Source of the DNA: Schleiferiaceae bacterium | GTDB taxonomy: Bacteria; Bacteroidota; Bacteroidia; Flavobacteriales; Schleiferiaceae | Direction: 5' to 3' | Assembly: GCA_028357285.1 (NCBI GenBank) | Contig: JAOMWM010000001.1 | Location: 124,001 to 188,000 of the forward strand | Length of the DNA: 64,000 bases | Part shown: one piece after another, positions 19,978 to 36,932 of the stretch | Position numbering within the stretch: position 1 is the stretch's first letter | How the letters are laid out: every line of letters starts with the position of its first letter | Notes under the pieces: generated by a model | Database searches by the model: none | What the model was told of the DNA's origin: nothing | Seen by the model: only the letters and a program-made list of their open reading frames with translations | Made by a program: the position numbers and the translations under genes

Positions 19978-20068
19978 AAATAAGCATGAGGCATTCATGT
20001 TTAAATCTGAAAAGAAACCAGCGCTAAGACATTGCCTAGTCAATATTTTAGGAGTAAGATAAACATAT

Positions 20069-20092
20069 TACGCGCGCCTGCAGCGCGCGCAA
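20069..20092. other. GC-rich inverted repeat downstream of the endonuclease I gene
   Basis: ttacgcgcgc-ctgca-gcgcgcgcaa perfect GC stem; weak T-tract so terminator function uncertain. Confidence 0.5.
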
Positions 20093-20099
20093 TTCTATT

Positions 20100-21146
20100 C
20101 TAATGTGCGATTATGATCTGCTCGCGAAATTCGCCCGATTGCAAGATGTACGATCCCGCAGGAAGCATTTCTACAACGATTCGATTATTACCAGTATTCA
20201 CTGTACCCTCAAGCAACTGCTCGCCGGATAAATTGGTAATGGTAAACGGTGCTGTAGCCTGCGCTGTGATATTCAAAAAGGTATCTGCAGGATTAGGTCC
20301 CAGATGAAGATGAGAACGCGCAGGAGCAGTTTCTACAGCCATAAAGGGGTTCCAGGATACGTTCGTTGAATCACCATAGATATAATCAACTAATTCGGGA
20401 TGGTCAATAAACGGATTACGGTTCCCTTGCATCGTGTGAATTACATTGTTACGGTTCAACTCGAAGCTGTCTACTGGATCCGCCCAGTGCCAATCTAATA
20501 ACGTCGAAAGTACTGCATGAGTGGTACCTCCAGAGTTTAGAGCTTCTTGAACGACCAAATCGGGCTCCGCACCCGCTCCTTCATAACGCAAATCCATGTA
20601 CAGAATGATTCGAGCTAAATCGCCTTTCACTTTATCGCGTGGTTCAAATAAACCGGCAGAACCGTTGTACGTATTCCCGGTTGCAGAACCGTTATAGTTT
20701 ACAGCATTTCCGGTTGAACCTAAATCATCGTATTCATGATTCGAACGAAGCGAGTTCAGCCCACCATCTGCAGGCTTGAGGTTGTGTACATCCGTTCCAA
20801 CTCCTTGACTCGTTCCAAAGTTGCCTAAACTCCTTGGCCAGACGTGCTCTCTATTCCAACCTTGACCATTGTTATATTCTTGCGGACCATCCACACTCAC
20901 ACCTGCATAGATTAAACAGACGTTTGAGGTGTTTGTCGTGTCTTTATCGCTGACTTTTAAGACGTCCCAAGTATCCGTATTAGAGGAAGAGTATGTGAGA
21001 CGCGTATGAACCTTTATGATATCGTATAATGCTTCTCGCAGGTCTTCCCCACTTTCATTGTACGCATCTTGATAGTAAGGCAATGGCTGGGCTTGTAATG
21101 TCGTAAGGGCAAGTACCGCAGCAAATAGTGTGAATATGTTCTTCAT
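20100..21146 (-). CDS. Secreted endonuclease I family nuclease with T9SS sorting domain
   Basis: WNREHVWPRSLGNFG...TDVHNLKPADGGLNSLRSNHEYDDLG (endonuclease I HNH-like motif); C-terminal LGPNPADTFLNITAQ...LPAGSYILQSGEFREQIIIAH. Confidence 0.9.
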   Translation of the reverse strand: MKNIFTLFAAVLALTTLQAQPLPYYQDAYNESGEDLREALYDIIKVHTRLTYSSSNTDTWDVLKVSDKDTTNTSNVCLIYAGVSVDGPQEYNNGQGWNREHVWPRSLGNFGTSQGVGTDVHNLKPADGGLNSLRSNHEYDDLGSTGNAVNYNGSATGNTYNGSAGLFEPRDKVKGDLARIILYMDLRYEGAGAEPDLVVQEALNSGGTTHAVLSTLLDWHWADPVDSFELNRNNVIHTMQGNRNPFIDHPELVDYIYGDSTNVSWNPFMAVETAPARSHLHLGPNPADTFLNITAQATAPFTITNLSGEQLLEGTVNTGNNRIVVEMLPAGSYILQSGEFREQIIIAH

Positions 21147-21199
21147 TTGGGCTATAATTTCAATGACAAAGATGCAGAAAATAGAAGTAGCTTAAGTGT

Positions 21200-22045
21200 T
21201 TACTTCCAGTATTCAACAGGAAAGCTAGGATCCAATTCTTTGAGCGCTTCTCCCACATGTGCCCAATCTTGCTTGAACTGCGCCAACACAGATTGATCCT
21301 CTGGCTGGTCGGCCACACGTCCCCCGCTGTTGAGCTTCATGTACAACGGAAGAACTGCTTTTTGAATTGCGTGTGGAATGAGTGGCTGAATTTTAAGACC
21401 TAATTGGTGTAAAAAACCACTCTTAATTGCAACGCTTTCATTTCGGTGTTCGAAGTCAAAATCCGTGTAATACGCTGCATCAATTCCAACATATTCTGAA
21501 ATTTCTGCCATGACCTCAGGTTTGCGTGACATAAAATCTTCAAAAGCCCAAAAACGCACATGACCTTCAGGCATTACATCTATCCAAGCTGTTACATGTT
21601 TCGCATAGTCAACGTGATCCGTAATTTGAGGTCGCTTAATGTAGTCGGCTAATGGCATGTCAATGCGCTTCGTTCGAAAGCGCTCCATCTTGTAGTGGCT
21701 GTACATTTGTTTCGAAGGCTCGCGGAATAAGAAAATCAATTTTGGCGGGTTCGGCCAAGAAGAAAAAGCGGTCCGTGCGGTACTTTCATACAAATAATGA
21801 GCGGTAGCCTCAAAGCGAATGAATTGATCTATTCCTCCCTTGAAAAAGCTTTCATATGCCGCCAATTCGTGTTCGTGTGCATTAGCAGAGGCATTGAATC
21901 TATTCACTTTATCCGCGAAAAAGAACGTCTCTTTTTTAGGACTACCGTAGACTTTGGGATGGGCAGATAACCAAAAATATAGACTGCTCGTACCGCACTT
22001 TGGGGCACCGCCAATAATGACATTTGGAAGAGAGGCTTCGTTCAT
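21200..22045 (-). CDS. Sulfotransferase domain-containing protein
   Basis: PNVIIGGAPKCGTSSLYFWLSAHPKVYGSPKKETFFF (PAPS 5'-phosphosulfate loop) and LIFLFREPSKQMYSHYKM. Confidence 0.88.
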   Translation of the reverse strand: MNEASLPNVIIGGAPKCGTSSLYFWLSAHPKVYGSPKKETFFFADKVNRFNASANAHEHELAAYESFFKGGIDQFIRFEATAHYLYESTARTAFSSWPNPPKLIFLFREPSKQMYSHYKMERFRTKRIDMPLADYIKRPQITDHVDYAKHVTAWIDVMPEGHVRFWAFEDFMSRKPEVMAEISEYVGIDAAYYTDFDFEHRNESVAIKSGFLHQLGLKIQPLIPHAIQKAVLPLYMKLNSGGRVADQPEDQSVLAQFKQDWAHVGEALKELDPSFPVEYWK

Positions 22046-22203
22046 GCCTGCAAGATAGTAAGATTACAAGCTAGACCATCTAAGCGCGGCAAATGTTCGT
22101 ATTGTACTATTCTCATATCCTAAACGTTGAATAGCTGAGGAATTGAGCCTATAACTCTTCATCTACAGGGGGTCAACAGCTATTTAACTACCGCGTAAAA
22201 CAC

Positions 22204-22211
22204 TACATTTG
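22204..22211 (+). promoter_or_regulatory. -7 promoter element TACATTTG upstream of flippase gene
   Basis: TAnnTTTG match ending 9 nt before ATG 22221; overlaps the ORF-track TTG start at 22209. Confidence 0.6.
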
Positions 22212-22220
22212 AGCCAAGCC

Positions 22221-23657
22221 ATGGGCACTATGAACAACGCTAAAAAACAAATCTCTTCGGGTGCAGTGATTAACCTCGCTGGGATTCTTTTAGGCGCGGT
22301 ACTCAACCTATGGCTACTCCCCAAACTGTTCAGTACAGAAGAGCTAGGCATGTACCGTTGGATGGAACGTTCTGCAGTACTTCTATCTAACATTCTGCTT
22401 TTTGGAGTCCATCGTTCGTTCACAAAGTTTCATTCTGATCCTTCAAAAGATAAAAAGACCTTTGAGAGTGTAGTTGTCGGCAGAAGTACGCTGCTCATGA
22501 TAATTATAGGTATTCTGGTCTTTTTATTCGGACCGCTTCTCGCTGCCTACTTCAACTTCAAACCTAAGGATGCGCATTTATTGCGCTACCTCAGCTTTTT
22601 CATTGTCAGTGGTATGGCTTTTCTAATGGCCGTGGCTGCTGCTGCAACAACGAAGAAAATTACCATACCTGTGTTCCTTAAGAATATGGGTATGCGCTTT
22701 GCAATGGCCGCATTGGCCGTTGTGCTATTTTTTAACAGCGATCTATTTGAATTCAGTCATTGGCTCATTGCCTATGCATGGGCTTCTCTAACTCTAGGGA
22801 TTGCCGCCCTATTTTACGGGTGGAACCGCATTAAGCCAGCTTTTCGTTTAAAGCACTTATGGGCTCCGATGGGTAAAGATGTGAACCGGTTTGCCTGGAT
22901 CAGTGTCTTTAGTGTGCTCATAGAGATTGGCATAAACACACTCGATGTTCAAATGCTATCGATGCTTACGGACATGAACAGCGTAGGTATTTATGGGATG
23001 GCTTTTTTCATGGGCTCCGTAATAGACGGAATACGTCGACCGATCAACCAAATGCTCGCACCCCAGATTTCCACAAGTTGGAATAACAACAATATGGGAG
23101 CGCTCAAAAAGATGTATCAAAAAACCTCCAGTGCGCAGATGGTTGTGAATGCAGCCTACGTTATTCTCGTTGTGGTTAATGTCGAATGGATTTTTTCGCT
23201 CATTCCAGATGGAGAACGTTTCTACCCCGCCATTCCTGTAGTGGTCTGGACCTTAGCTAGAAAATACATCAATGCCGCATTCGGTTCTAATGGTGAAATC
23301 ATCGCCAATAGTCCATTCTACCAATTAAACATGCAAATTGGTTCCATTATGCTCGTAATTAATGTGCTACTCAACCTTCTTTTTATACCCCGTTACGGTA
23401 TAATCGGAGTTGCCTACAGTGGATTGATTGCAGTGATTTTCGTTAATACCATGAGGGCCGCCATGATTTACCGAAAAAGTGGTCTGCAGCCTTTTACTAA
23501 AGAAAGTCTCGTTATTTTAATGGGCAGTGCAGCCGTAGGAGCACTTTGTTACAAAGTTCCTTTTGACGGTCTTATGAAGTTTTTAGTCTCCGGCGCGATC
23601 GTCGTTGCTGCCCTACTGGTCAATAGAAAATTCATTAAAAACCTACTGTTGCGCTAA
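22221..23657 (+). CDS. Polysaccharide/oligosaccharide flippase (Wzx-like, MATE/MOP superfamily)
   Basis: Multi-TM protein; ISSGAVINLAGILLGAVLNLWLLPKLFSTEELGMYRW and RPINQMLAPQISTSW; adjacent to glycosyltransferase. Confidence 0.85.
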   Translation: MGTMNNAKKQISSGAVINLAGILLGAVLNLWLLPKLFSTEELGMYRWMERSAVLLSNILLFGVHRSFTKFHSDPSKDKKTFESVVVGRSTLLMIIIGILVFLFGPLLAAYFNFKPKDAHLLRYLSFFIVSGMAFLMAVAAAATTKKITIPVFLKNMGMRFAMAALAVVLFFNSDLFEFSHWLIAYAWASLTLGIAALFYGWNRIKPAFRLKHLWAPMGKDVNRFAWISVFSVLIEIGINTLDVQMLSMLTDMNSVGIYGMAFFMGSVIDGIRRPINQMLAPQISTSWNNNNMGALKKMYQKTSSAQMVVNAAYVILVVVNVEWIFSLIPDGERFYPAIPVVVWTLARKYINAAFGSNGEIIANSPFYQLNMQIGSIMLVINVLLNLLFIPRYGIIGVAYSGLIAVIFVNTMRAAMIYRKSGLQPFTKESLVILMGSAAVGALCYKVPFDGLMKFLVSGAIVVAALLVNRKFIKNLLLR

Positions 23658-23678
23658 GCCTGCGTACCTTTATTCCCC

Positions 23679-24776
23679 TTGAAAGTCGCATACATTCAAA
23701 ATAGAGTCCAATTAGGAGGTCGTTTCCAGGTCACTTTCGAAATGACGAAAGTCTTAAATGCTATGGGAATCATACCCGATTTTTATTGCTATCGACATCG
23801 GCTTACTTTGGAGGATATTGAAGCACATTACGGCGCTTCAATCCAGCTGAACTTTAAGGCTATAAAAGAGCCGAAGCTTCCTTTTGAATGGAACATTACG
23901 CGCTTCAACAGCGACGTCAATAAACATGTCCAGGGCTACGACTTGATCATCAACAGCAACAATACCAGCCTAGGTCTAGATCCTTCCCTAAATAGCATCA
24001 GCTACGTTCACTACCCGCGAAAAGCTCGCCTAATGACAGGCATTTCATTGTCTAAACTTTTAGACATAGGAAGAGATCCCCTGCAGTTGAATGCTTTACG
24101 CTACCGTTGGCATCGTAAAGTGGGGGCTATAGACCTGCAAATTGCAAACAGCGCATTTACTGCAGCGCGCTTTGAAGAGCAGTACGATATGAAAATAGAC
24201 GGCATACTTTATCCCCCGGTAGCCATCGATTTTAAGCAAAGTGAAAAAATAAGTCGTCGTATCGTGAGCTTAGGGCGTTTCTCGCCAAACAAACGTCAAT
24301 TGGAACAGATCATAATGATGGCGGATCTACGCGAATACGAGCTCTATTTGATTGGTTTCAAAAACGACGTGGATTACTATAACCGATGTGCACAGGCCAT
24401 TACTGACTTAAAGCTGACGAACGTTCATCTCATAGCAGATGCTTCAGAAGAAGAGCGCAATAGCCTCTTAACCTCTGCAGCCTTTTTTATTCATTCATTG
24501 CGCGAAGAGCCCTTTGGCATCACCACCGTTCAAGGTATTGGCGCAGGATGTATACCGATCGTCCACAATAGTGGAGGTCAGAAAGAGGTGGTTCCGTTTG
24601 AGGAATTGCGGTACGGAAATGAAGATGCCATACCGGAGCTTGTGCGCGCACTAGAGCAATCGGACCGGATAGAAGAACTTCGTGCCGCGCTGCAGAAGCA
24701 CATTACTGCCTTCGACAGTGCTTCATTTAAAGACCAATTCAAAAGCTTACTCGAACAAAAACTACCCAAAGCATGA
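23679..24776 (+). CDS. Glycosyltransferase family 4-like protein
   Basis: ISRRIVSLGRFSPNKRQLEQIIMM and FIHSLREEPFGITTVQGIGAGCIPIVHNSGGQKEVV. Confidence 0.88.
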   Translation: MKVAYIQNRVQLGGRFQVTFEMTKVLNAMGIIPDFYCYRHRLTLEDIEAHYGASIQLNFKAIKEPKLPFEWNITRFNSDVNKHVQGYDLIINSNNTSLGLDPSLNSISYVHYPRKARLMTGISLSKLLDIGRDPLQLNALRYRWHRKVGAIDLQIANSAFTAARFEEQYDMKIDGILYPPVAIDFKQSEKISRRIVSLGRFSPNKRQLEQIIMMADLREYELYLIGFKNDVDYYNRCAQAITDLKLTNVHLIADASEEERNSLLTSAAFFIHSLREEPFGITTVQGIGAGCIPIVHNSGGQKEVVPFEELRYGNEDAIPELVRALEQSDRIEELRAALQKHITAFDSASFKDQFKSLLEQKLPKA

Positions 24777-25606
24777 GAAAAGACAAGCTCTTAAAGGAAT
24801 GGTTTGAATTCAACACGAAGTATTGGAAAGCGCTAAAACTACGTGCTAAATTACACGGGCACCTAAAAGATAGCGAAGTACTTCCAGACGACGTCTTAGC
24901 GAATGCTGCCCCGGTTTTTGTGCTTTCTACGGGGAGGGTTGGAACCATGCTGCTGACCCGTCTTTTTGAATTGGAAAAAGGTTTACACATCGAACACGAA
25001 GCATTGCCTGAAATGCTCTATACAGGGAAGTTGGCTTACGCGAACCCCAGTAATATTGAGTTTACGAAAGGTGCATTTATGGCCGGGCGCTATGAAGCCA
25101 TTCGGGATTGCCAATTGCAGAATTTGCGCTACGTTGAAACCAACAATAGACTGACCTTTTTTGCTCCGGCTATGGCCGCGTTGTTTCCCAATGCTAAGTT
25201 TATTCACTTGCTGCGCCATCCTGATAGCTTTGTCTCTTCCGGTATCCAGAGAAATTGGTACACGGGGAAAACCATCACAGATGAAGGGCGTATTGCACCC
25301 GCAAAAGATTTAGGAATTCAACGCCAACAGGATAAAATTGCGTGGTTGTGGAATGCAACAAATGCCTTTATTGATGATTTTAAGGAAGGTGCGGGAAAGG
25401 ACAGAACCTTGACGGTCCGTTCAGAAGCTCTTTTCTCGAATGCGGAAGAAGCGGAGCGAATTTTGAATTGGCTCGACTTTAACGCAGATAAAAGGAGTAT
25501 TCAGAAAGTACTAAATACGCCTGTGAATAGTAGTCGTAAGAAAAAGACACCGCAGAAATACAATGCGGATTTGACGCCTTTGGTGAAGAAGTACTACGGG
25601 AATTAG
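24773..25606 (+). CDS. Sulfotransferase-like protein
   Basis: VFVLSTGRVGTMLLTRLFELEKGLHIEHE (P-loop-like) and AKFIHLLRHPDSFVSSGIQRNWY. Confidence 0.75.
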   Translation: MRKDKLLKEWFEFNTKYWKALKLRAKLHGHLKDSEVLPDDVLANAAPVFVLSTGRVGTMLLTRLFELEKGLHIEHEALPEMLYTGKLAYANPSNIEFTKGAFMAGRYEAIRDCQLQNLRYVETNNRLTFFAPAMAALFPNAKFIHLLRHPDSFVSSGIQRNWYTGKTITDEGRIAPAKDLGIQRQQDKIAWLWNATNAFIDDFKEGAGKDRTLTVRSEALFSNAEEAERILNWLDFNADKRSIQKVLNTPVNSSRKKKTPQKYNADLTPLVKKYYGN

Positions 25607-26265
25607 TCAATCAATAACTCCGGGTAAAACACTTCGTAGTCTTTGCGATAAATGCGCTGTAATCTGCGGCGTTGATCGTCTGTTAACTCCACTTTTTTAG
25701 TAGAACGGTTGACATTGAGTCTTACCTCTTTTTCATAGGGCGTACCCAGTTGCTCTGCAACTTTGGCGAAGTCCTCATCGAAGTTTTCGAATCTGCCTAT
25801 AAAGTCCATGTTAGGAATATCGATGATGGAAGTTTGCGCGCGCAAATGTTCGTCACATTTAGTAACATCTTGACCCTCCACCCAGGTCAGAAACGTGTCA
25901 AAATCTTGCATACGCCTGTGCTCTTCTTCCGAGAACCTGAAATAATTCTGTACCGTTACCTTGTCCTTCCAACAACTGATGAATTTTTCTTCAGGGTTGC
26001 GGACGAAGGAGAACTTATAGAAGTTCCTGACCGCCCATCTGGAATACGGCATGGCAGATCCGTAGATCAATGACCCTGGCTTACTGTCGGAAGTAAGGTA
26101 GTTGTTGATGGTGCGCGAAGCGACCTTATAATTTCGAAACCAGATGGCCTTGTAGCGGTAGCTATACGACATGAAGAAGCGCTCCTTCCTGAAAAGCTTC
26201 AAGACGTACTTATTCCAATAAAAGTGCCTGAATTTGTACGGTATTTCGCTAAGGTTTAATTTCAT
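25603..26265 (-). CDS. Sulfotransferase family 2-like protein
   Basis: AIWFRNYKVASRTINNYL (5'-PSB-like) and YKFSFVRNPEEKFISCWKDK (3'-PB motif FVRNP). Confidence 0.8.
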   Translation of the reverse strand: MKLNLSEIPYKFRHFYWNKYVLKLFRKERFFMSYSYRYKAIWFRNYKVASRTINNYLTSDSKPGSLIYGSAMPYSRWAVRNFYKFSFVRNPEEKFISCWKDKVTVQNYFRFSEEEHRRMQDFDTFLTWVEGQDVTKCDEHLRAQTSIIDIPNMDFIGRFENFDEDFAKVAEQLGTPYEKEVRLNVNRSTKKVELTDDQRRRLQRIYRKDYEVFYPELLID

Positions 26266-26365
26266 GTTTGCGCAAATGTGGTGCTAAAATACATGAACCT
26301 GCCTTAAGCTGCTATGGGCAGCCCTAAATTGAACTACTTTTACCCTCCATCATAGAAAAAACTCC

Positions 26366-27043
26366 ATGTCCGCCATCGATATCCTTTTTGAATCCAATCA
26401 AATCATTGTGATCACTAAACCTGCGGGTATCATTTCTGAACACAATAAATTTGAAGCCGATAATGCCGAAGCTTTGGTGCGTGCTCATTTAAGTGAAAAA
26501 GTAAAAACGCCATTCGTAGGTATTACGCACCGCTTAGACCGAGTGACAAGCGGGATCTTGCTTATGGCGAAACGTCCGGGTACACTTAAAACCATTAATC
26601 AGTGGTTTGAAAGTAGACAAATCAAAAAGACCTATCTCGCTATAACGAGTACGGCACCGGAGGTTGCTTCGGGACTATTGGAACAGCACTTATGGACCGA
26701 TGTTGAGCAAAAAAAGGCACTGGTTGTAAGTGGTAAAAAGAAAGGTGCCAAACCTGCACAGTTAAGCTACCGCACATTGGCCGTCACCGACTTTGGTTGT
26801 TTGCTTGAAATCAAGCCAAAAACAGGGCGGTTCCATCAAATCAGAGCGCAATTGGCCCATATGGGCTGTCCAATAATCGGGGATGAGAAATACGGAAATG
26901 CGCAGCCCTATTTAAAGCAACAAATCGCGCTGCATGCCCACATGCTGGAGCTTCCCGAAACCATCAATAACAGTCCTGTACTATTCACAGCAGGTCTTCC
27001 TGACACAGGACTTTGGTCTCGTTTTGCTGATCAATTCAAATAA
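26366..27043 (+). CDS. RluA-family pseudouridine synthase
   Basis: THRLDRVTSGILLMAKRPGTLKTINQWF (HRLDxxTSG active-site motif) and KPKTGRFHQIRAQLAHMGCPIIGDEKYG. Confidence 0.95.
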   Translation: MSAIDILFESNQIIVITKPAGIISEHNKFEADNAEALVRAHLSEKVKTPFVGITHRLDRVTSGILLMAKRPGTLKTINQWFESRQIKKTYLAITSTAPEVASGLLEQHLWTDVEQKKALVVSGKKKGAKPAQLSYRTLAVTDFGCLLEIKPKTGRFHQIRAQLAHMGCPIIGDEKYGNAQPYLKQQIALHAHMLELPETINNSPVLFTAGLPDTGLWSRFADQFK

Positions 27044-27082
27044 CGCGCTTTAATCCTGATGTCATTGTTCGCGAAATCGCCT
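26864..27082 (+). repeat. Direct repeat copy A (3' end of rluA-like gene plus 3' end of convergent ligase gene)
   Basis: 219 bp alignable without gaps to 29729-29947; 12 mismatches. Confidence 0.97.
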
Positions 27083-28530
27083 TCGTTGTTTTGAAGCAAC
27101 TGAACCGTAACGCGCTCAGCTCCCGACATTGCATACGCTGCGCGGAAATCTTGATTGATACGAACCAATTGATCGATCAACGCCATCTTAACCTCGTGCT
27201 CGTCAACAGTATCCCAATTCATACCTTCTTTCGCCTCAAGTCGAATTTCTAAGGTTTTATCGCCCGTAGCATCTTCGCTCGTACTTAACTGGAATGTATT
27301 ACAACGCTCGACTAAAATGGGCACCTCAAACATGGACTCTTGCACATCCACAGGGCTAATGTTCGCACCAAAGAAGGCGACGGTCATATCTGCACGGCCA
27401 TAATGGAATAGCAGTGGCAAATCTGTCCTCGGTAATGTGATTTCAGATTTATCAATACCCAATTCCTCGAATAGCTCGAACAATTCTTTTATAGTCACTT
27501 GATGCCCACGATCGTGGATGTTATAGCGCACTTTAGGCGCGACATAATGAAATCTACATACCGTTATGATCAACTCGCCTTCCTCCGAATTCTGAACTAG
27601 AAAATCAGAAGGGTTGTACTGAAATATCATAGGCAAAGCACCTTCATGCCTCATTAATCGTGCGCGCAGCTTTTCGTTCGATCGCATCAAACGTCGAACA
27701 CTGATTGTAAAGTCATTTTCAGATCCAATATTTAATTCTAGATCTGAAGCACCTAAGGAACTATACACCTTTTTTATACCTCTCGCGTACAAGAAATCAC
27801 GCATCCCTTCAGACATGGATTCACCACCAAAAATGAATGAGATGTCGTAATCCTGCCATGGCACTGTATCGCCCTCTACCAACTGCTTCAAGAACGGAGG
27901 ATAGCCCATAACCACATATTTATATTTGGTCCCAAACTGTAGCAGCGTATTCTCAATTTTAGTCTTCTCCGGTCCTAATGACTTTAAACGTGAAAAGGGC
28001 ACACAACTCATCGTCACATTTACACCCGTGGCCCAAGGCCCCAATGCGAATGCGTTCACAATAAAATGAGGCTCCTTACCGAATAATGTTTCGAATCCAA
28101 ATCGGATAATTTTCGCATTCCGCTTACGCTCAGTTTTACCACGTACCCAGTTCGTAGCAGTACCACTCGAACCTGAAGATTCATCAAAAATGATGTTGCG
28201 CTCTGGAATCTTACCGTCAATACAACGACTGTCCATATCGAATTTCTTGATGTAATTATCCTTATCCATCCAAGGGATGTCCTCTATAAGTGGAACAAAG
28301 CCTTTAAATCTGGGCTCGTTAAAGGAACGTTCTTTTAAGAATGCCTGATATGCAGGTACGTTCTTTTTCGCATTTCTAAACTGATAATACGCTCTGGCGC
28401 GACTATTAAAGTTTCTGAGCTTATTAAAGCCAGGGACATACAGGAACTTAATCGCCCAAGGAAATGTCAAAAATAATTCACGGTAAACACCACCAATGCG
28501 GGCGTAGTAGTACACTAAAATTCGTTTCAT
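27031..28530 (-). CDS. CapK-like / phenylacetate-CoA ligase-like adenylate-forming enzyme
   Basis: NIIFDESSGSSGTATNWVRGKTER (AMP-binding P-loop-like), IFGGESMSEGMRDFLY, VRYNIHDRGHQ. Confidence 0.8.
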   Translation of the reverse strand: MKRILVYYYARIGGVYRELFLTFPWAIKFLYVPGFNKLRNFNSRARAYYQFRNAKKNVPAYQAFLKERSFNEPRFKGFVPLIEDIPWMDKDNYIKKFDMDSRCIDGKIPERNIIFDESSGSSGTATNWVRGKTERKRNAKIIRFGFETLFGKEPHFIVNAFALGPWATGVNVTMSCVPFSRLKSLGPEKTKIENTLLQFGTKYKYVVMGYPPFLKQLVEGDTVPWQDYDISFIFGGESMSEGMRDFLYARGIKKVYSSLGASDLELNIGSENDFTISVRRLMRSNEKLRARLMRHEGALPMIFQYNPSDFLVQNSEEGELIITVCRFHYVAPKVRYNIHDRGHQVTIKELFELFEELGIDKSEITLPRTDLPLLFHYGRADMTVAFFGANISPVDVQESMFEVPILVERCNTFQLSTSEDATGDKTLEIRLEAKEGMNWDTVDEHEVKMALIDQLVRINQDFRAAYAMSGAERVTVQLLQNNEGDFANNDIRIKARYLN

Positions 28531-29615
28531 GGCAGTATAATTTGATCGGTTGCTATTCTGTAACTCCTCGGCGGCTGTTTGCTGTAACCAGCTCTAAAGG
28601 CAAAAGCCAATGGTGCCTCATTCCCTTGTTCTAGCGCAAGGGTGGTCTTCATTTTCTCAAAAGCGGAGGGATTCGTAATGAGATTGCCAAACGGGTGCAT
28701 ATAGGCATTATCGTTGGCCATTTGAAGCCAGATTCTGCAGAGCATTCTGCCAAACTCAAACTTATTTTCATTTGTTGTCCAGGGGTATTGAATCCACGCT
28801 ACAGTTGCCGTTCCACTAAATGTTCCTCGATAGTATTGTTTAAGCATCTGCTTACGCGCACCTTTCGTCCATCTCGTGTGATGACGGAATACAGACTTTA
28901 CCAGCTTTCCTGGAAAGCCCATACATTTTGTCCATAGTCCTGTTTTGAGCTCCTCTGCTTCCTTTTTAGAGTACCGAAAGAGCTGATCTAATTCTTCGCG
29001 CATGTCCTGAGCTGTGAGATCTTCAAATAGGCTTTCTTGATTGATCTTGATGATATAGTCTACCAATTCCTCATCGTTCGAATGAAAGAAACGACCTCCA
29101 AATGAGTTGACAATGTCCTCGCAAGTATTTAAAGTAAGAGTAGATAACGGTTTACCGTCGTAATGATTTCTTGCCGTCCTCCGCTCTTTTAACAAATCAC
29201 GGTGTAAGGGCTCGCTCCTCTCGATAGGCAAAAGCGCTAACCGAGCGAAAGGTTTTATTTCTTCGACTGTGTGATCCGGTTTAGCGATGATCTCCGTTTT
29301 TTTTACGGCAAAGCCATAATGGGCAGCGGCAATGGACAACGACTCTGTAAAAACACCCATTACAGCGGTAGCAAAATCAGACTTAGGATCACCTACCGGC
29401 AACAGAAACTTAGGGTCATAGCATAAAATCGCTTCAGTTTCCGATATAATTTTTAACCGATGCGGCTGAAGATTATGAACAGATGGGGCCCATCTTGCCC
29501 AATCCACTAAAGATTCCCAAGTAGGGATCGTTGTATCCCTCGCCCTACCGAGCAAGGGCAGAAATGTACCGAGGGATACCAAAGCTGTACGGTAAAGGAA
29601 GGTCCTTCGGTGCAT
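28527..29615 (-). CDS. Nitroreductase-like protein
   Basis: WESLVDWARWAPSVHNLQPHRLKIISE (nitroreductase-like APSxxNxQP) after an N-terminal signal-like MHRRTFLYRTALVSLGTFLPLL. Confidence 0.75.
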   Translation of the reverse strand: MHRRTFLYRTALVSLGTFLPLLGRARDTTIPTWESLVDWARWAPSVHNLQPHRLKIISETEAILCYDPKFLLPVGDPKSDFATAVMGVFTESLSIAAAHYGFAVKKTEIIAKPDHTVEEIKPFARLALLPIERSEPLHRDLLKERRTARNHYDGKPLSTLTLNTCEDIVNSFGGRFFHSNDEELVDYIIKINQESLFEDLTAQDMREELDQLFRYSKKEAEELKTGLWTKCMGFPGKLVKSVFRHHTRWTKGARKQMLKQYYRGTFSGTATVAWIQYPWTTNENKFEFGRMLCRIWLQMANDNAYMHPFGNLITNPSAFEKMKTTLALEQGNEAPLAFAFRAGYSKQPPRSYRIATDQIILP

Positions 29616-29728
29616 ATGTCTTGGTGTTTGGTGGAAGATAGGGGATTAATATTCAATATCAAAGTATTGATTTTAAGTTGATTACACATGTCACATTGTA
29701 AATTATTAACTATTTTCCCCTGAAGATC

Positions 29729-29947
29729 GGTTGCCCAATCATTGGGGACGAGAAATACGGCAACGCGCAGCCCTATTTAAAACAACAGATTGCGCTGCAT
29801 GCCCACATGCTGGAGCTTCCCGAAACCATCAATAACAGTCCTGTACTATTCACAGCAGGTCTTCCTGACACAGGACTTTGGTCTCGTTTTGCTGATCAAT
29901 TCAAATAACGCGTTTTAATCCTGATGTCATTGTTCGCGTAATCGCCT
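29729..29947 (+). repeat. Direct repeat copy B: orphan remnant of rluA 3' end and ligase 3' end
   Basis: Encodes GCPIIGDEKYGNAQPYLKQQIALHAHMLELPETINNSPVLFTAGLPDTGLWSRFADQFK-stop in + and GDYANNDIRIKTRYLN-stop in -, with no full gene attached. Confidence 0.97.
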
Positions 29948-30982
29948 CTACTGGACTTGAGGGACCTTGGGATTCATTACTCTAAACCAGAGCGGCGGAA
30001 CAAAACTCAAAAGGATTGCCGATGGATAGCCCATAGGCAGTGTAGGGCACTCTTCATGATTATCCAGGACTTGATATTTCTTTGAAGATTTGAAGTGATG
30101 ATCGCTATGTCGTGTTAGTTCGTAAAGCGTAATTCTTCCAATTTTAAAATTTGAATTCCACGAGTGATGGGGTTCGACCCGCTCATAACGGCCAGAAGCT
30201 AACTTTTGACGCTGTAAACCGTAATGCTCTATATAGTTGATACATTCCAAAAATAGAATCGAAATTATTCCAACTACAATTGCGAAAATCATTACTTCAA
30301 AAGAGAAGATATAATAGATACTGAACAGGTATAGTGGCTGTATCAAATGATAAAAAATCATATCATTTTTCAGAGAGAAGAAAGATTTTTTCTGGGTTTC
30401 GAGGATTATTTTTTGGCGTTTCCACGCGTCTAAATATTGCTTGGTGATTGAAGTAAACCAGAATGAGTAGACCGACTGATTGATTCTAGCAGTAGCACCA
30501 TCTTCTGGTGTTGCAACATTTAAATGATGACCAAAATTATGTTCAATATAAAAATGCATGTACAGACACGGCATGTATAGTAGTTTGCTCGTAAATCGCG
30601 CAAAATACGTGCGTCTATGACCCAATTCGTGAGCCACATTTATGCCGTTTGTTGCTAACAAAACGCCTGTTGAAATAGCAATACCGATCGTCTCAAGAGT
30701 ATTAAAATCGCCTGTTTGAATTGAAGAAAATCCTACAAATAATAGTCCAAATACAATTGGAACATTTAAAAACAACATGACATCGAAAATCCATTTATTT
30801 TGAAGACTGGCAACACTTTCGTCGGGAATATTATCTTTTTCTTCACCTAAAATCAAGTCCAACAATGGGATGATCAAGAAAACATAGACAACCGCAGAAT
30901 ACGTCCAAATCCCAGTCGAAATAAACGATATGTAAACTGAAATGGGCACTGTGTACGCAAATAGATATTTAAGATCTCTCAT
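29948..30982 (-). CDS. AlkB-like alkane 1-monooxygenase / membrane di-iron hydroxylase
   Basis: Histidine boxes HELGHR, HNFGHH and LTRHSDHH in a multi-TM protein. Confidence 0.88.
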   Translation of the reverse strand: MRDLKYLFAYTVPISVYISFISTGIWTYSAVVYVFLIIPLLDLILGEEKDNIPDESVASLQNKWIFDVMLFLNVPIVFGLLFVGFSSIQTGDFNTLETIGIAISTGVLLATNGINVAHELGHRRTYFARFTSKLLYMPCLYMHFYIEHNFGHHLNVATPEDGATARINQSVYSFWFTSITKQYLDAWKRQKIILETQKKSFFSLKNDMIFYHLIQPLYLFSIYYIFSFEVMIFAIVVGIISILFLECINYIEHYGLQRQKLASGRYERVEPHHSWNSNFKIGRITLYELTRHSDHHFKSSKKYQVLDNHEECPTLPMGYPSAILLSFVPPLWFRVMNPKVPQVQ

Positions 30983-31166
30983 GTCTTCAAGGGCTTAATT
31001 CATGTGTCATTGCTTGCTCACGCTTTTTGGAATAAGTAAAATCAGTCGAGCTCGAGTTTTGAGCTCTTCCGTAATGCGCGTGAACTATTTAAAGTTAGCA
31101 TTTATAATCCGTAGGTAATTTAAGAACATCTTAACGCCGTACAAACCGATTGGATGGGCAAAAATG

Positions 31167-31204
31167 AAAAAGCACCTACACATTTCTGCGTAAGTGCTTT
31201 GTTT
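31167..31204 (-). terminator. Terminator downstream of the tRNA
   Basis: Imperfect stem AAAGCACTTACGCAGAAATGTGTAGGTGCTTT followed by T-rich tract on the minus strand. Confidence 0.6.
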
Positions 31205-31208
31205 TCAG

Positions 31209-31282
31209 TGGGCCCACCAGGGCTCGAACCTGGGACCACCTGATTATGAGTCAGGTGCTCTAACCAACTGAGCTATAGGCCC
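31209..31282 (-). tRNA. tRNA with CAT anticodon (Met or lysidine-modified Ile2)
   Basis: GGGCCTATAGCTCAGTTGGTTAGAGCACCTGACTCATAATCAGGTGGTCCCAGGTTCGAGCCCTGGTGGGCCCA folds as a cloverleaf; anticodon loop CTCATAA; no encoded CCA. Confidence 0.95.
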
Positions 31283-31468
31283 GCTTTCATTGGTCGGTGA
31301 GAACAATCTCGGTAAAGATACAACCCACTATCTTTTTAAAGACTGAAATTAAAACAATATGTGCGAAAGGTTTTTTATCACTAATGACATTATAAGACAC
31401 TCAAAGTCAATATACTCTAGGAATGTTATTCTGGTGTTTCTTATATTTATTTGAAACTAAATCATGAA

Positions 31469-32326
31469 ATGATGAAAAAAATTAAGTTGTTGTTAGGGAT
31501 CCTATCAATAGGAATTCTATCTAGTTGTGAAGCGCCAGTGAAAGAGGAAATGTCTTCTATGGATAAAATTGGTTTTGCGGGCCTCGATGGGGGTGCATTT
31601 ATCGCAGACCATGGAGAAAGTATGGATAATTGGATCAAATTCTGTGATCTACACTCCTCGAAAAGTATTGAGGCTATGATGGAATTATGTGGTGATTCTA
31701 TTACTGTTGATCTCAAAGATGGAGAGCAAATTAAAGGAAAAGAAGCTTTCCGTGAAGGACTCACAAATTGGATGAAAGATGCAGATGTGAGTATTGATCA
31801 GCAGTGGGGTGTACCGCTCAAATTCGTTAATGCAGTGGATACTGTCGACGATGGCGTTTGGCTTGTTACCGGACATGAGTTGAAGGTAAAGTCTGGAAAT
31901 TCTATTCATATCGAGGACAACCATGTTAATGTATACATGAAAGATGGAGTCATTCAGTACATGAAAGTTTACACGCATAAAACTTCTGACGTTGAAGGAG
32001 TTGAAGTCACTTTCTCAGTAGACATGTCAAATTACGAAGGCGACTTTGCTTCCGTCGGTGTATTTGGATCTTTCAACAGCTGGTGTGGATCTTGTAATTC
32101 CCTTAGTGATGACGATGGGGATATGGTTTATGAAGGAACCGCTATTGTCCCCACTGGTACGATGGAATATAAATTTATCCTCGATAATCAGAATATTGAA
32201 GAGTCTTTTGAGGCAGGATTAGAATGTACGAATACTACAGATGTTTATACAAACAGATCAGTAAATATTGATAGTGCAGTGGTATTATCTACGGTATGTT
32301 TCAATAGTTGTTCAACGTGCGAATAA
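31469..32326 (+). CDS. Lipoprotein with SnoaL/NTF2-like domain fused to the same beta-sandwich 'A' module found in the 14392-19506 protein
   Basis: Lipobox-like LLGILSIGILSSC; VTFSVDMSNYEGDFASVGVFGSFNSWCGSCNSLSDDDGDMVYEG...TNTTDVYTNRSVNID...VCFNSCSTCE; ATG 31469 preferred over TTG 31451. Confidence 0.75.
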   Translation: MMKKIKLLLGILSIGILSSCEAPVKEEMSSMDKIGFAGLDGGAFIADHGESMDNWIKFCDLHSSKSIEAMMELCGDSITVDLKDGEQIKGKEAFREGLTNWMKDADVSIDQQWGVPLKFVNAVDTVDDGVWLVTGHELKVKSGNSIHIEDNHVNVYMKDGVIQYMKVYTHKTSDVEGVEVTFSVDMSNYEGDFASVGVFGSFNSWCGSCNSLSDDDGDMVYEGTAIVPTGTMEYKFILDNQNIEESFEAGLECTNTTDVYTNRSVNIDSAVVLSTVCFNSCSTCE

Positions 32327-32347
32327 TCGCAAGAGAATAAATAAAGA

Positions 32348-32382
32348 AAAGGCCTGTTATTAAAATGTGACAGGCCTTTTTC
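32348..32382 (+). terminator. Intrinsic terminator after the SnoaL-like lipoprotein
   Basis: aaaggcctgt...acaggccttttt stem-loop with T-tract. Confidence 0.88.
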
Positions 32383-32497
32383 GTTCGCGTAGTTTTGATA
32401 AGCACAATTCTTCACCCGCTTAAAGAAATTACGGAGCATCCATCATGTTACGTCCTTTTGCTTAGTATTGCACCCTAAGAAGGTCTCAAAGACAATT

Positions 32498-33109
32498 ATG
32501 ATTAAGCAGATTTGGTTTGATTTCGGGAATATTTTCATCCCCGTTTTCCCTGAAAATACGAAAGAACAGTTCGAACGTTGTGGCGTGCAGCTCTCTGAAG
32601 CGCATTTTACGGAATTGCACCATGCGTTTGAAGTGGGTGAAGTGAGCCAGCGCGAATTTTTCCAATCACTCACCGCCTCATGTAAATTTCTACAGAGTGC
32701 GCAATGTGTGAGGCAAGCCTGGATGAGTATGCTCGGAAATTTAAGAGATGAAACTTTGTTCCTTAAGAAATTAGGGAAATCGTATGATTTAGCGCTTGTT
32801 AGCAATACCAATGCAGCACACATTGAGGCCATTGCCGCTGCTTCCGGTCCGTTTCTTTGGACTCATTTTACCAATGCGTTTGATGGACTCTTTCTCTCGT
32901 ATGAAATTCATGAACGCAAGCCCAACGCGTCGTACTTTGAGAAGGTTGCACAAGCGATGAATGCAGAACCTGCTGAAGTATTGTTCATTGATGATACCCA
33001 AGAAAATTTAGACAGTGCGGCGGCATTGGGATTTCAGACCCTACTTTTTAATTGTCAAGAAGGTGATTTGAAGAAGGAATTAACTGCGTTCTTGACACAG
33101 TTCGATTAA
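32498..33109 (+). CDS. HAD-family hydrolase
   Basis: IWFDFGNIFIP, LALVSNTNAAH, KPNASYFEKV, EVLFIDDTQENLDSAAALGFQTLLF; ATG 32498 preferred over TTG 32468. Confidence 0.85.
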   Translation: MIKQIWFDFGNIFIPVFPENTKEQFERCGVQLSEAHFTELHHAFEVGEVSQREFFQSLTASCKFLQSAQCVRQAWMSMLGNLRDETLFLKKLGKSYDLALVSNTNAAHIEAIAAASGPFLWTHFTNAFDGLFLSYEIHERKPNASYFEKVAQAMNAEPAEVLFIDDTQENLDSAAALGFQTLLFNCQEGDLKKELTAFLTQFD

Positions 33110-33493
33110 CGTTCCCCCAGCATCCTTAGGGTGCAGGAAACAGACCCATTTATTGTCGGCTCCTGTTTTCGGCGTATCATTCAACAAGCGAAAACCTTCC
33201 CGTTTTAATCGATCCATTTCGGCCGCTATGTCTTCGACTGCATAGGCAACATGGTGAATGCCTTCGCCGCGCTTTTCTATAAATTTTGCAATAGGACTTT
33301 CTGGATTCGTGGCTTCGAGCAGTTCAATCTTGTTGGGTCCAGCTTTAAAGAAGCTGGTACGAACGCCTTCGCTCTCTACCACTTCCTCTTTGTAGGGAGG
33401 AACACCTAGAAGCTTTGTATACAGTGCGTTTCCTGCTTCAAGATCCTTAACTGCAATACCAAGATGCTCAATCTGGACTAAATGGTGGCTCAT
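33080..33493 (-). CDS. mce: Methylmalonyl-CoA epimerase
   Basis: IEHLGIAVKDLEAGNALYTKLLGV, GEGIHHVAYAVEDI, NDTPKTGADNKWVCFLHPKDAGGTLIELCQE. Confidence 0.92.
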   Translation of the reverse strand: MSHHLVQIEHLGIAVKDLEAGNALYTKLLGVPPYKEEVVESEGVRTSFFKAGPNKIELLEATNPESPIAKFIEKRGEGIHHVAYAVEDIAAEMDRLKREGFRLLNDTPKTGADNKWVCFLHPKDAGGTLIELCQERS

Positions 33494-35292
33494 GCTTCTG
33501 CGTTTAATGTACCTAAGTTAACCAATGCCGCGTATTTACCCGCTTTTTGAAGAAGTTCTGAGTGCGTACCCAGCTCGACTACCCTACCTGCTTCTACATA
33601 TGCGATTTGATCGGCGTGCTGAACGGTGCTCAGACGGTGTGCTACCACTACCGTAGTACGTCCTTTCATCAGCGCTATCAACGCCTCTTGAACGCGGGCT
33701 TCGCTCTCGTTATCTAATGCGGCAGTTGCCTCATCTAAAAGCAATAAACTTGGGTCTGCATAGAAGGCGCGCGCTATGCTTAACCGTTGACGTTGTCCAC
33801 CGCTTAATTGGTTTCCGCCTTCGCCTATTAATGTCTCCTTAGCCAAATATTCTTGCGCAAATTCCAAACAATGCGCAGCTTCAAGCGCATGCATTAATCT
33901 CGACTTATCGAGCGTTCCACTCATACTGACATTCGCAGCGATGGTATCGTTAAACAATAAGGGCTGCTGTGGCACCCATCCGGTATGCTTGCGATAGGAA
34001 GCCCGTTTAAAAGCATTTAATGGAACGTCCGCAAGATTTAATGCACCAGTTTCGGGATAATCAAAACCTGCCAATAAATGCAATAGGGTGCTTTTTCCAC
34101 CGCCAGAAGGGCCTACTAATGCAGTGGTTTTTCCTGGCAATAAATTCAGGTGTAGCCCGTTAATCACAGGCACTCCCGGCTCGTAGGCAAAGGTTGCATG
34201 CTCAAAGCGCAATCCCTGCTCCCAATGGCTGGACTCCACTTCTAGATTACCGTCTTTAGCTTCTTCCTGATCTAAAACTTCAAAAATTCGAGCTGCACTG
34301 GCATTGCCTTTTTGAATGTCATACAGGGCATTCGTAAGGTTTTTAAATGCTGGAATGAGTTGGTAAAAGAGTACGACAAAAGCAACCAATTCTCCACCTG
34401 TTAACGACCTGCCATTCAACACTTCCTGTCCTCCTAGATAGAGAACGGCGAGCAATACACCTACACCCAATACCTCAGCAATGGGCGAACTTAAATCGCG
34501 CTTTCGATAGACATTAATCATGAATTTGCGCCACAAATCCACACTTTGACCAAAGCGCGTTGCTCTTCTATTTTCTGCAACATAACTCTGAATAATGGGG
34601 AAGTTGGTCAAGGCTTCCTCTAGTTCAGAAGTGGTGTTTCCTAATTGGCTTTGGGCGGCCTGGGCACTTTTCTTTAAGCTTTTCCCGATAGTGGCAATCA
34701 AACCTCCTGAAATGGGAATAATGGCTATGGCCATCAATGTCAATCGAGGGCTCATAGAGAACAACAAAATAAGTGTACCTAAAATCATTAATGGATCACG
34801 GACGAGCCCCTCCATTCCTTTGAGCATGGTCCATTCTATTTCAGTCAGATCAGCTGTCGCCCGTGTTAACTGATCGCCTTTCTGAAGTTTCTGGTGCTGA
34901 TGAAAACTCATGGCCAACCATTTGTCGTGCAATGCTTGTTTGTAATTCGCAACTACACCATTGCGTACAGGCGCTAAAATCCAAAGTGCAGCATACCGTG
35001 ATAGATTCTTAGCAACGAAGATTCCTAAGGTTATGAATACGACAGTTTGTAGGGTATATAAAGCACCCCGACTTTCCTTCAAGGCCTGTATAGCCTCTGC
35101 TAAGGAGACCTTCCATTGCGCAGCACCGGTAAGATCTGTGCCTGGCGTATCGAAAATCAAATTCAAAATAGGAATTAACGCCCCTACTGATCCGATGCTG
35201 AAAATCACCGTCAATAGATTGAAAAAAGACGCCATTAAAAGCATACCCGCGAAGGGGCGCATGGTCTTTAATATCCGTAGGAATGCATTCAT
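33490..35292 (-). CDS. ABC transporter, fused permease/ATP-binding (MsbA-like)
   Basis: TMD plus Walker A GPSGGGKST, signature LSGGQRQRLSIARA, Walker B LLLLDEATAALD. Confidence 0.92.
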   Translation of the reverse strand: MNAFLRILKTMRPFAGMLLMASFFNLLTVIFSIGSVGALIPILNLIFDTPGTDLTGAAQWKVSLAEAIQALKESRGALYTLQTVVFITLGIFVAKNLSRYAALWILAPVRNGVVANYKQALHDKWLAMSFHQHQKLQKGDQLTRATADLTEIEWTMLKGMEGLVRDPLMILGTLILLFSMSPRLTLMAIAIIPISGGLIATIGKSLKKSAQAAQSQLGNTTSELEEALTNFPIIQSYVAENRRATRFGQSVDLWRKFMINVYRKRDLSSPIAEVLGVGVLLAVLYLGGQEVLNGRSLTGGELVAFVVLFYQLIPAFKNLTNALYDIQKGNASAARIFEVLDQEEAKDGNLEVESSHWEQGLRFEHATFAYEPGVPVINGLHLNLLPGKTTALVGPSGGGKSTLLHLLAGFDYPETGALNLADVPLNAFKRASYRKHTGWVPQQPLLFNDTIAANVSMSGTLDKSRLMHALEAAHCLEFAQEYLAKETLIGEGGNQLSGGQRQRLSIARAFYADPSLLLLDEATAALDNESEARVQEALIALMKGRTTVVVAHRLSTVQHADQIAYVEAGRVVELGTHSELLQKAGKYAALVNLGTLNAEA

Positions 35293-35337
35293 TTTTCTTT
35301 TGCTTGCCCACGAAGGTAGTGCTTACGTGGCAATGCG

Positions 35338-35345
35338 TAAATTTG
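35338..35345 (+). promoter_or_regulatory. -7 promoter element TAAATTTG upstream of rbfA
   Basis: TAnnTTTG match ending 7 nt before ATG 35353. Confidence 0.6.
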
Positions 35346-35352
35346 CAGTATT

Positions 35353-35712
35353 ATGGAAAGCACTAGACAACTCAAGATTGCCAAACTTCTTCAGAAGGAG
35401 ATGGCAACCATTCTTCAAAAATTGGCCCGTGAACATTTCTCCGGCACCCTACTGAGCGTGTCTAAAGTGCGCGTCAGCCCCGATTTAGGTGTGGCAAAAA
35501 TCTACATCAGCATCTTCCCAGTGGATAAAACGAAGGAAGTGGAAGATTTCTTACAATTAAACAACACGAAACTCCGTGGCGCATTAGGCCACAGTGTAGG
35601 AAACCAGTTACGCGTCGTTCCCGAACTCATCCTGCGCACGGACGACAGTTTGGAATACGAAGAAAACATCGAACGATTGCTTCGCGGCGACGGCGAAAGT
35701 CCCATTAAATAG
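35353..35712 (+). CDS. rbfA: 30S ribosome-binding factor A
   Basis: STRQLKIAKLLQKEMATIL, VSPDLGVAKIYISIFP, LRVVPELILRTDDSLEYEENIERLL. Confidence 0.9.
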   Translation: MESTRQLKIAKLLQKEMATILQKLAREHFSGTLLSVSKVRVSPDLGVAKIYISIFPVDKTKEVEDFLQLNNTKLRGALGHSVGNQLRVVPELILRTDDSLEYEENIERLLRGDGESPIK

Positions 35713-35717
35713 AGGCT

Positions 35718-36932
35718 GTGCAGTCGTTCTCTACATTCCTCGCAAGAAAGTACTTCTTTGCTCTAGGCAAGTTGGGAGCGATTCGCTTGATGTCCTTAAC
35801 GGCCTTAGTGGGACTGGCTCTTGGTACAGCTGCGATGACCGTAGTTCTTAGTGCTTTTGCGGGTCTTGAAGATCTCGTTGCGGAACAATTCGAAGATGCC
35901 AATCCCCCACTTAAAATCAGCCCTACAGGTGGAACCAGTCTTGTGCTCTCGGCAGAAGATTCTGCTTACCTAAATACAGAAGCGGCCCGTTATCCGGCGT
36001 CCGTATTTGAACCCGTTTACGAGCAACGCGTCTTGCTGGCACAGGGCGAGAATCAACACATAACGTATGTATTGGGTGTCTCTAATGAATATATTCGGGA
36101 GCACCGTTTAAACGAACACCTCCTTACCCAGGCCGATCCCAGCCTTGATCTTGGTGAAAACACGTTGGCCTTAGGGGCAGGAGTGGCCTACCATCTAGGT
36201 GTTTCCAACGCGAATCCTCCACCAATCGTTACCGTATACCTACCCAAAATAGACGCCACAACCACTGCGCTCAATCTAAGTGATGCGGTGCGAGCAAAAA
36301 ATGTATTTATTACTTCTATTCACACTGTGCAGCCGGATTATGATGTCAATAAAGCCATCGCACCGAAAGGTTGGGTTCAAGCCTTTACCGGCGCCAAACA
36401 CCCTTCCTATCTCGAAGTCTATGATAATAATAATGCGTTGAGAAAATCCATCGAAATGCACTTTGGCGACCGCGCCATCATCGCAGACAGATTAGAACAA
36501 GAAGCCACACTTTTTAAAGTCATGCGCTCTGAAAGGCTCGTGGTATTGGGTATTCTTGCATTCGTGGTTGTGCTTGCAAGTTTTGGAATCGTTTCCGCCC
36601 TCACGATAATTGCTTTAGAGAAAAAAAGCGACATCTATACCCTTTGGTCTATGGGAACATCTAATGCACAGCTTCGCTCCATCTTTTTTAAAAACGGACT
36701 TCTTATAGTACTCGCAGGATGGGCAGTCGGTCTAAGTCTAGGAACGACAATCATACTTATTCAAAAATACGTTGGTGTCGTCTCTCTAGGGTCTGGATAT
36801 ATTCAGGAGTATTACCCCGTCGTTCTTTCATGGAAGCATTATTTGCTAACGACAACCATCGTTTTAAGCATAGGAACCGCCATATCTATGTGGTCTACTG
36901 GTAAAGTGATTCAACAAATCAACGAAGCCTAA
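35718..36932 (+). CDS. ABC transporter permease, FtsX/LolE-like
   Basis: FLARKYFFALGKLGAIRLMSLTALVGLALGTAAMTVVLSAFAGLE and C-terminal FtsX-type TM domain ALEKKSDIYTLWSMGTSNAQLRSIFFKNG. Confidence 0.85.
   Translation: MQSFSTFLARKYFFALGKLGAIRLMSLTALVGLALGTAAMTVVLSAFAGLEDLVAEQFEDANPPLKISPTGGTSLVLSAEDSAYLNTEAARYPASVFEPVYEQRVLLAQGENQHITYVLGVSNEYIREHRLNEHLLTQADPSLDLGENTLALGAGVAYHLGVSNANPPPIVTVYLPKIDATTTALNLSDAVRAKNVFITSIHTVQPDYDVNKAIAPKGWVQAFTGAKHPSYLEVYDNNNALRKSIEMHFGDRAIIADRLEQEATLFKVMRSERLVVLGILAFVVVLASFGIVSALTIIALEKKSDIYTLWSMGTSNAQLRSIFFKNGLLIVLAGWAVGLSLGTTIILIQKYVGVVSLGSGYIQEYYPVVLSWKHYLLTTTIVLSIGTAISMWSTGKVIQQINEA

Follow-up and report, generated by a model that had tools for sequence, protein, structure and literature searches.

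In the window, by which we mean the whole 64,000-nucleotide stretch of DNA analysed from the genome of a Schleiferiaceae bacterium, an intact rluA-like pseudouridine synthase gene and a tRNA-Met(CAT) gene border an interval with two sets of genes in tandem, called here cargo I (a ligase-like and a nitroreductase gene) and cargo II (an alkB-like gene), and a fragment of rluA and of the ligase-like gene, the orphan, lies between them (Table 1). The rluA subfamily was assigned by TIGR00005 at a score under the cut-off of the model, and orthologues with 87-96% identity are found in the relatives G016, G013, G023 and G024. The 499-residue ligase-like protein has no match in Pfam (up to E 10) or NCBIfam; a profile of three sequences weakly matches the PaaK-type ligase 4r1l (E 7e-4), an orthologue with 92% identity occurs in G023, and the protein belongs to a diverged family without a model in the Pfam and NCBIfam libraries. 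A structure prediction for this protein reached a pLDDT of 36 and was discarded. The nitroreductase, with orthologues in G023, G002 and G007, matches NF047509 with an E of 4.6e-32, yet under the cut-off of that model. The tRNA-Met gene is intact.

Table 1. Features of the interval between rluA and tRNA-Met (positions in the window)
Feature	Position	Strand	Evidence
rluA-like pseudouridine synthase, intact gene, carries repeat copy 1	26366..27043	+	PF00849, E 1.9e-29
Probable imported G016-like homologous tract in intact rluA	26509..26926	+	site-by-site counts, permutation
Repeat copy 1: rluA 3' end and ligase 3' end	26861..27082	+	sequence comparison
Putative phenylacetate-CoA-ligase-like protein, 499 aa (cargo I)	27031..28530	-	weak profile match
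Nitroreductase / Acg-like FMN oxidoreductase (cargo I)	28527..29615	-	PF00881
J1: join of the region upstream of the nitroreductase to rluA at codon ~166; ATC(GG) in common with rluA	29726..29728	+	G009 contig 68, parent sequences
Repeat copy 2 (orphan): rluA tail and 52 bp of ligase tail; apparently the native allele, G009-like, with two substitutions of its own (29913, 29939)	29726..29947	+	
J2: ligase tail fused to the first base past the stop codon of alkB; CCT / GCGAAATC similarity between parents	29941..29950	+	same in G009; parents G013, G024, G010
alkB-like fatty-acid-desaturase-family hydroxylase (cargo II)	29948..30982	-	PF00487, E 1.5e-22
tRNA-Met(CAT), at which the variable interval ends	31208..31282	-	

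Across the tRNA, between tRNA-Met and the gene of a HAD hydrolase, lies a 291-aa gene (31451-32326) with a C-terminal domain resembling AMPK1_CBM; at this position a gene of 285 aa that looks unlike it is found in G009, G016 and G023, and G013 has none, which suggests that genes were also exchanged beyond the tRNA. The same CBM-like domain recurs in several internal repeats of a 1704-aa secreted-type protein (14392-19506), and the DNA of this gene cross-matches itself in relatives.

The repeat and its junctions

An earlier note, made from the sequence of the window, had described a gapless direct repeat of 219 bp, and our comparison reproduced it with exactly the 12 differences listed there (95% identity; chance is excluded): ten synonymous third-position changes, all in the first 63 bp, then 121 identical bp (26927-27047 = 29792-29912), followed by two changes that alter the ligase tail (27048/29913, A/T, and 27074/29939, F/Y). 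With a leftward extension by 3 bp, the copies measure 222 bp with 13 differences (94% identity), the added one being non-synonymous (ATG/ATC at 26863, Met/Ile in rluA); the description of the early differences as all synonymous therefore holds within the 219-bp bounds and fails once these are extended. No in-frame start codon precedes the rluA frame of the orphan.

With 67 contigs and an estimated completeness of 74%, the genome is a draft of metagenome type; we found no copies of the repeat in it beyond these two, and given the state of this draft an artefact had to be tested. The decisive comparison came from G009 (PZPA01, Sum29DL08_bin30), in which a 7,047-bp contig (contig 68) starts upstream of the nitroreductase, 90 bp short of the orphan, and spans the orphan, alkB and tRNA-Met, with 98.5% identity to the window over 29636-31282; both borders of the orphan, J1 and J2, are present in this independent assembly. 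The rluA of G009 is on a separate contig that ends 33 bp inside the repeat, and these 33 bp are identical to the orphan at a place where copy 1 of the window differs; since the end of the G009 rluA contig carries the orphan-type allele, both copies were once alike there. A contig end at this point would be expected of an assembler with 33-base words when a repeat is entered from two sides. Ligase and nitroreductase genes are absent from the G009 bin, and the missing contig, with an expected size of ~2.6 kb, may have been small enough to lose in binning. From the one contig with both orphan junctions and the one contig end, we infer that G009 has the full compound structure. That contigs of two strains were joined through the shared 121 bp, as the fragmented state of the draft and the break of the G009 assembly at the same repeat might have suggested, is scarcely credible and was rejected, since the orphan junctions recur in the independently named G009 assembly and the adjacency of rluA and ligase is present in G023 and G016.

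At J1, the relative G023 has CCCCGTATATCAC where the window has CCCCTGAAGATCGG, giving a microhomology of 3-5 bp as measured against G023, a diverged representative of the nitroreductase-side parent and not the exact parent. At J2, the parents read GCGAAATCGCCTTCG (ligase) and GCGAAATCATCACCTCTA (alkB flank of G013), and the product in G009 is GCGAAATCGCCTCTA. Judged from these sequences, both junctions look illegitimate and microhomology-assisted.

Alternative alleles in relatives

From the 3' end of rluA to tRNA-Met(CAT) and the gene of the HAD hydrolase, the content of the interval varies among relatives. The named relatives of the genome are MAGs of Schleiferiaceae, Cryomorphaceae and other Flavobacteriales. 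G013 and G024 have the order rluA-alkB-tRNA-Met; in G023, rluA and ligase share a contig, and a second contig carries nitroreductase and tRNA-Met; G016 has rluA, ~110 bp of ligase tail and tRNA-Met (rluA-ligase tail-tRNA, 159 bp); in G017, the tRNA follows rluA directly with nothing between; and other genes occupy the interval in G003, G006, G015, G019 and G022. In G010, the alkB gene (protein 98% identical) adjoins tRNA-Ser. In all alternative alleles seen, alkB and the ligase/nitroreductase pair exclude each other between rluA and the tRNA, and the window is the only compared genome with ligase, nitroreductase and alkB all seen at this spot, in tandem; the orphan is the seam between the two cargoes. 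A scan of public genomes for this rluA returned six loci only, none of them new to this comparison.

In the comparison of sister genomes proposed in the earlier note, relatives occur both with and without the ligase/nitroreductase pair. Its suggestion that these two genes may have arrived or been replaced in the one event was not supported, the pair being one of two alternative cargoes of which alkB is the other. Its further suggestion that they could loop out by recombination found no counterpart, no loop-out product being seen in 25 genomes of the genus.

Integrase-mediated insertion was considered and rejected: the ORFs of the window from rluA to tRNA-Met include no integrase, and there is no attachment-site repeat, the repeat being the tail of a gene and not the end of a tRNA, with tRNA-Met intact. 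As a separate observation, G008 has a tyrosine integrase (PF13102, PF00589) directly downstream of rluA (L086:296-1552), the only Pfam-confirmed integrase after rluA among the relatives inspected; mobile elements may also use the rluA spot.

A G016-like tract in the intact rluA

To trace the ancestry of copy 1, we used as informative sites the positions that distinguish G009 from G016. Of 120 such sites over 25538-26485, the window agrees with G009 at 116 (G009:G016, 116:3); over 26509-26926 it agrees with G016 at 56 of 61 (4:56), and over 26927-27082 with G009 again at all 27 (27:0). From 26894 on, including 26894-26926 within the tract, the G009 reference is the orphan copy of G009 only. The edges of the tract fall between 26485 and 26509 on the left and between 26926 and 26929 on the right. 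The counts in the three segments differ with a chi-square p of about 2e-38, and the longest run, of 26 sites, was never reached when sites were shuffled (0/20000 permutations). The alternation of G009, G016 and G009 alleles together with this permutation result leads us to conclude that, once the duplication had occurred, a G016-like allele took the place of ~420 bp of the intact rluA. The overwriting of copy 1, like the reality of the junctions, is highly probable under every surviving account of how the two cargoes came together.

All ten synonymous differences between the copies lie in the last 63 bp of the tract and, together with the ATG/ATC change, are G016-type sites of the middle segment. 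Across the stretch covered by the tract, the orphan matches G009; its two other differences are private to the window, the G009 orphan and copy 1 of the window agreeing at both, and the identity of copy 1 to the G009 orphan continues through 156 bp. On these alignments, the orphan would preserve the older, native allele, the divergent part of the repeat would be the patch, and the identical 121 bp would be what remains of the duplication where it was not overwritten.

This assignment changes the reading of the repeat in several ways. The earlier note had called it the scar of recombination with a related genome, which is supported, and had traced the synonymous differences to a probable functional rluA of a relative, correctly as to source; the donor DNA, however, sits in the intact copy 1 and not in the orphan. 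Its view that the orphan had diverged under purifying selection is contradicted by the coincidence of the divergent sites with the G016-like tract in copy 1 and by an orphan frame without a start codon, and the identical tract, taken there for a crossover or conversion patch, appears instead as an unchanged remainder of the duplication. Nor do the data fit a single event: the join is common to G009 and the import is absent from it, so the two are separate. The copies do carry alleles of two different lineages, as would be expected if a foreign orphan had come with ligase and nitroreductase from a related strain and the 121 bp were the crossover patch; this account is nonetheless very unlikely, as copy 1 switches allele inside rluA and is G009-like on both sides of the 420-bp tract, and the orphan is G009-like throughout, with the identity of copy 1 to the G009 orphan extending past the 121 bp.

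On a wider scale, similarity of the window to relatives switches sharply over 20000-36750: the stretch at 20.0-23.5 kb is 98-100% similar to G013, and those at 25.5-26.5 and 29.6-34.7 kb are about 99% similar to G009. These switches suggest intense recombination across species-level groups in this region.

Proposed origin of the compound allele and comparison with known systems

We consider it reasonably probable that two steps produced a compound allele in the window, at the variable spot that rluA and tRNA-Met border. In the first, common to G009, DNA with the rluA tail, ligase and nitroreductase would have been joined to a chromosome with the order rluA-[ligase-tail remnant]-alkB-tRNA-Met, at one end by homology in rluA and at the other, the nitroreductase upstream region, by an illegitimate join to rluA at 3-5 bp of microhomology. 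Such a join would place both cargoes behind an intact rluA and leave the orphan rluA/ligase tail as the seam. If the fragment was linear, the route may have been homology-facilitated illegitimate recombination; if it was circularised, a single crossover. In the second step, in the lineage of the window only, the ten synonymous differences would have arisen when homologous recombination with a G016-like relative replaced ~420 bp of the intact gene, and the orphan would have acquired two substitutions. Directly seen are both junctions, which two genomes share, the alternative alleles of relatives and the mosaic nature of copy 1; the order of the steps, the molecular route of the first and natural transformation as the source of the DNA are what we infer from them. 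DprA and ComEC families are present in the genome and are compatible with DNA uptake, although both are common and no proof of competence.

Either route for the first step needs a recipient with rluA, ligase tail and alkB without the ligase, an allele not found among 25 genomes of the genus, several of whose assemblies are broken near the locus; a tandem duplication followed by deletion therefore keeps a lesser but real share of the probability. In an ancestor with rluA, ligase and nitroreductase, it would have duplicated the stretch that begins at rluA codon ~166 and ends upstream of the nitroreductase; the second ligase body and nitroreductase would then have been deleted, with whatever else lay before the alkB stop codon, and the later overwriting of copy 1 would be the same. 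Copies identical at birth, as G009 suggests, would follow, no such recipient is required, and deletions that leave a ligase tail do occur (G016); yet alkB must already have stood downstream of the block, when the cargoes exclude each other in the alternative alleles seen, and two illegitimate events are required on one lineage. Template switching, by which the 222-bp rluA/ligase junction piece would have been copied into a break between the nitroreductase side and the alkB side with microhomology at both ends, would likewise give copies alike at birth and accords with the short microhomology to the parents at both orphan ends; it is improbable, as a random template would hardly come from the exact attachment site of the cargoes, the 3' end of rluA, a source that the two-step join of cargoes predicts. 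In a further and very improbable reading, the rluA tail could be a recurrent integrase-free docking site, with homologous recombination in the 3' end of rluA letting cargo circles enter and leave.

Recombination in the core genes that border variable spots is well documented (Oliveira et al. 2017, PMC5635113), and the locus resembles such gene-turnover hotspots in having different cargo between the same neighbours, rluA and tRNA-Met, of related genomes, in a recombination tract within the flanking rluA (one clear tract, at this locus only) and in the presence of competence-associated families. It differs in that one cargo replaces the other there, whereas two are fused in tandem here with a visible seam. 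Homology-facilitated illegitimate recombination (de Vries and Wackernagel 2002) involves microhomology of 3-10 bp (PMC3240628); the likeness would lie in one side at homology (rluA) and the other at 3-5 bp of microhomology, but typical products carry a deletion, in contrast to the duplicated segment of the homologous gene here, where the event is deduced from its product only. Campbell-type single-crossover integration of a circularised fragment predicts an insert with the shared segment directly repeated on either side and an illegitimate joint where one copy ends, a form which the locus resembles, and circle integration in E. coli gave duplications of such form of 109-950 bp (PMC3240628); the circle at our locus is postulated, and the recipient allele was not found among the 25 genomes of the genus. 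Short mosaic donor tracts are a known outcome of transformation (PMC13344027), like the ~420-bp donor tract here, which recipient sequence borders at either end and which is natural, single and from a donor known only as G016-like. A limited literature search yielded no account of short-patch double illegitimate recombination.

The locus of the window is thus a clear but ordinary example of bacterial genome shuffling, with hotspot dynamics of a known kind. It also carries a warning: synonymous-only divergence between a gene and an orphan fragment can stem from overwriting of the intact gene and does not by itself imply selection on the orphan. Should the rluA tail be a docking site after all, cargoes would stack and unstack reversibly in these marine bacteria. 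One locus displays alternative cargoes, a fusion of both in which the seam is preserved and a short imported tract in the adjoining rluA, and it shows the exchange of cargo in uncultured marine Bacteroidota without a recognisable mobile element.
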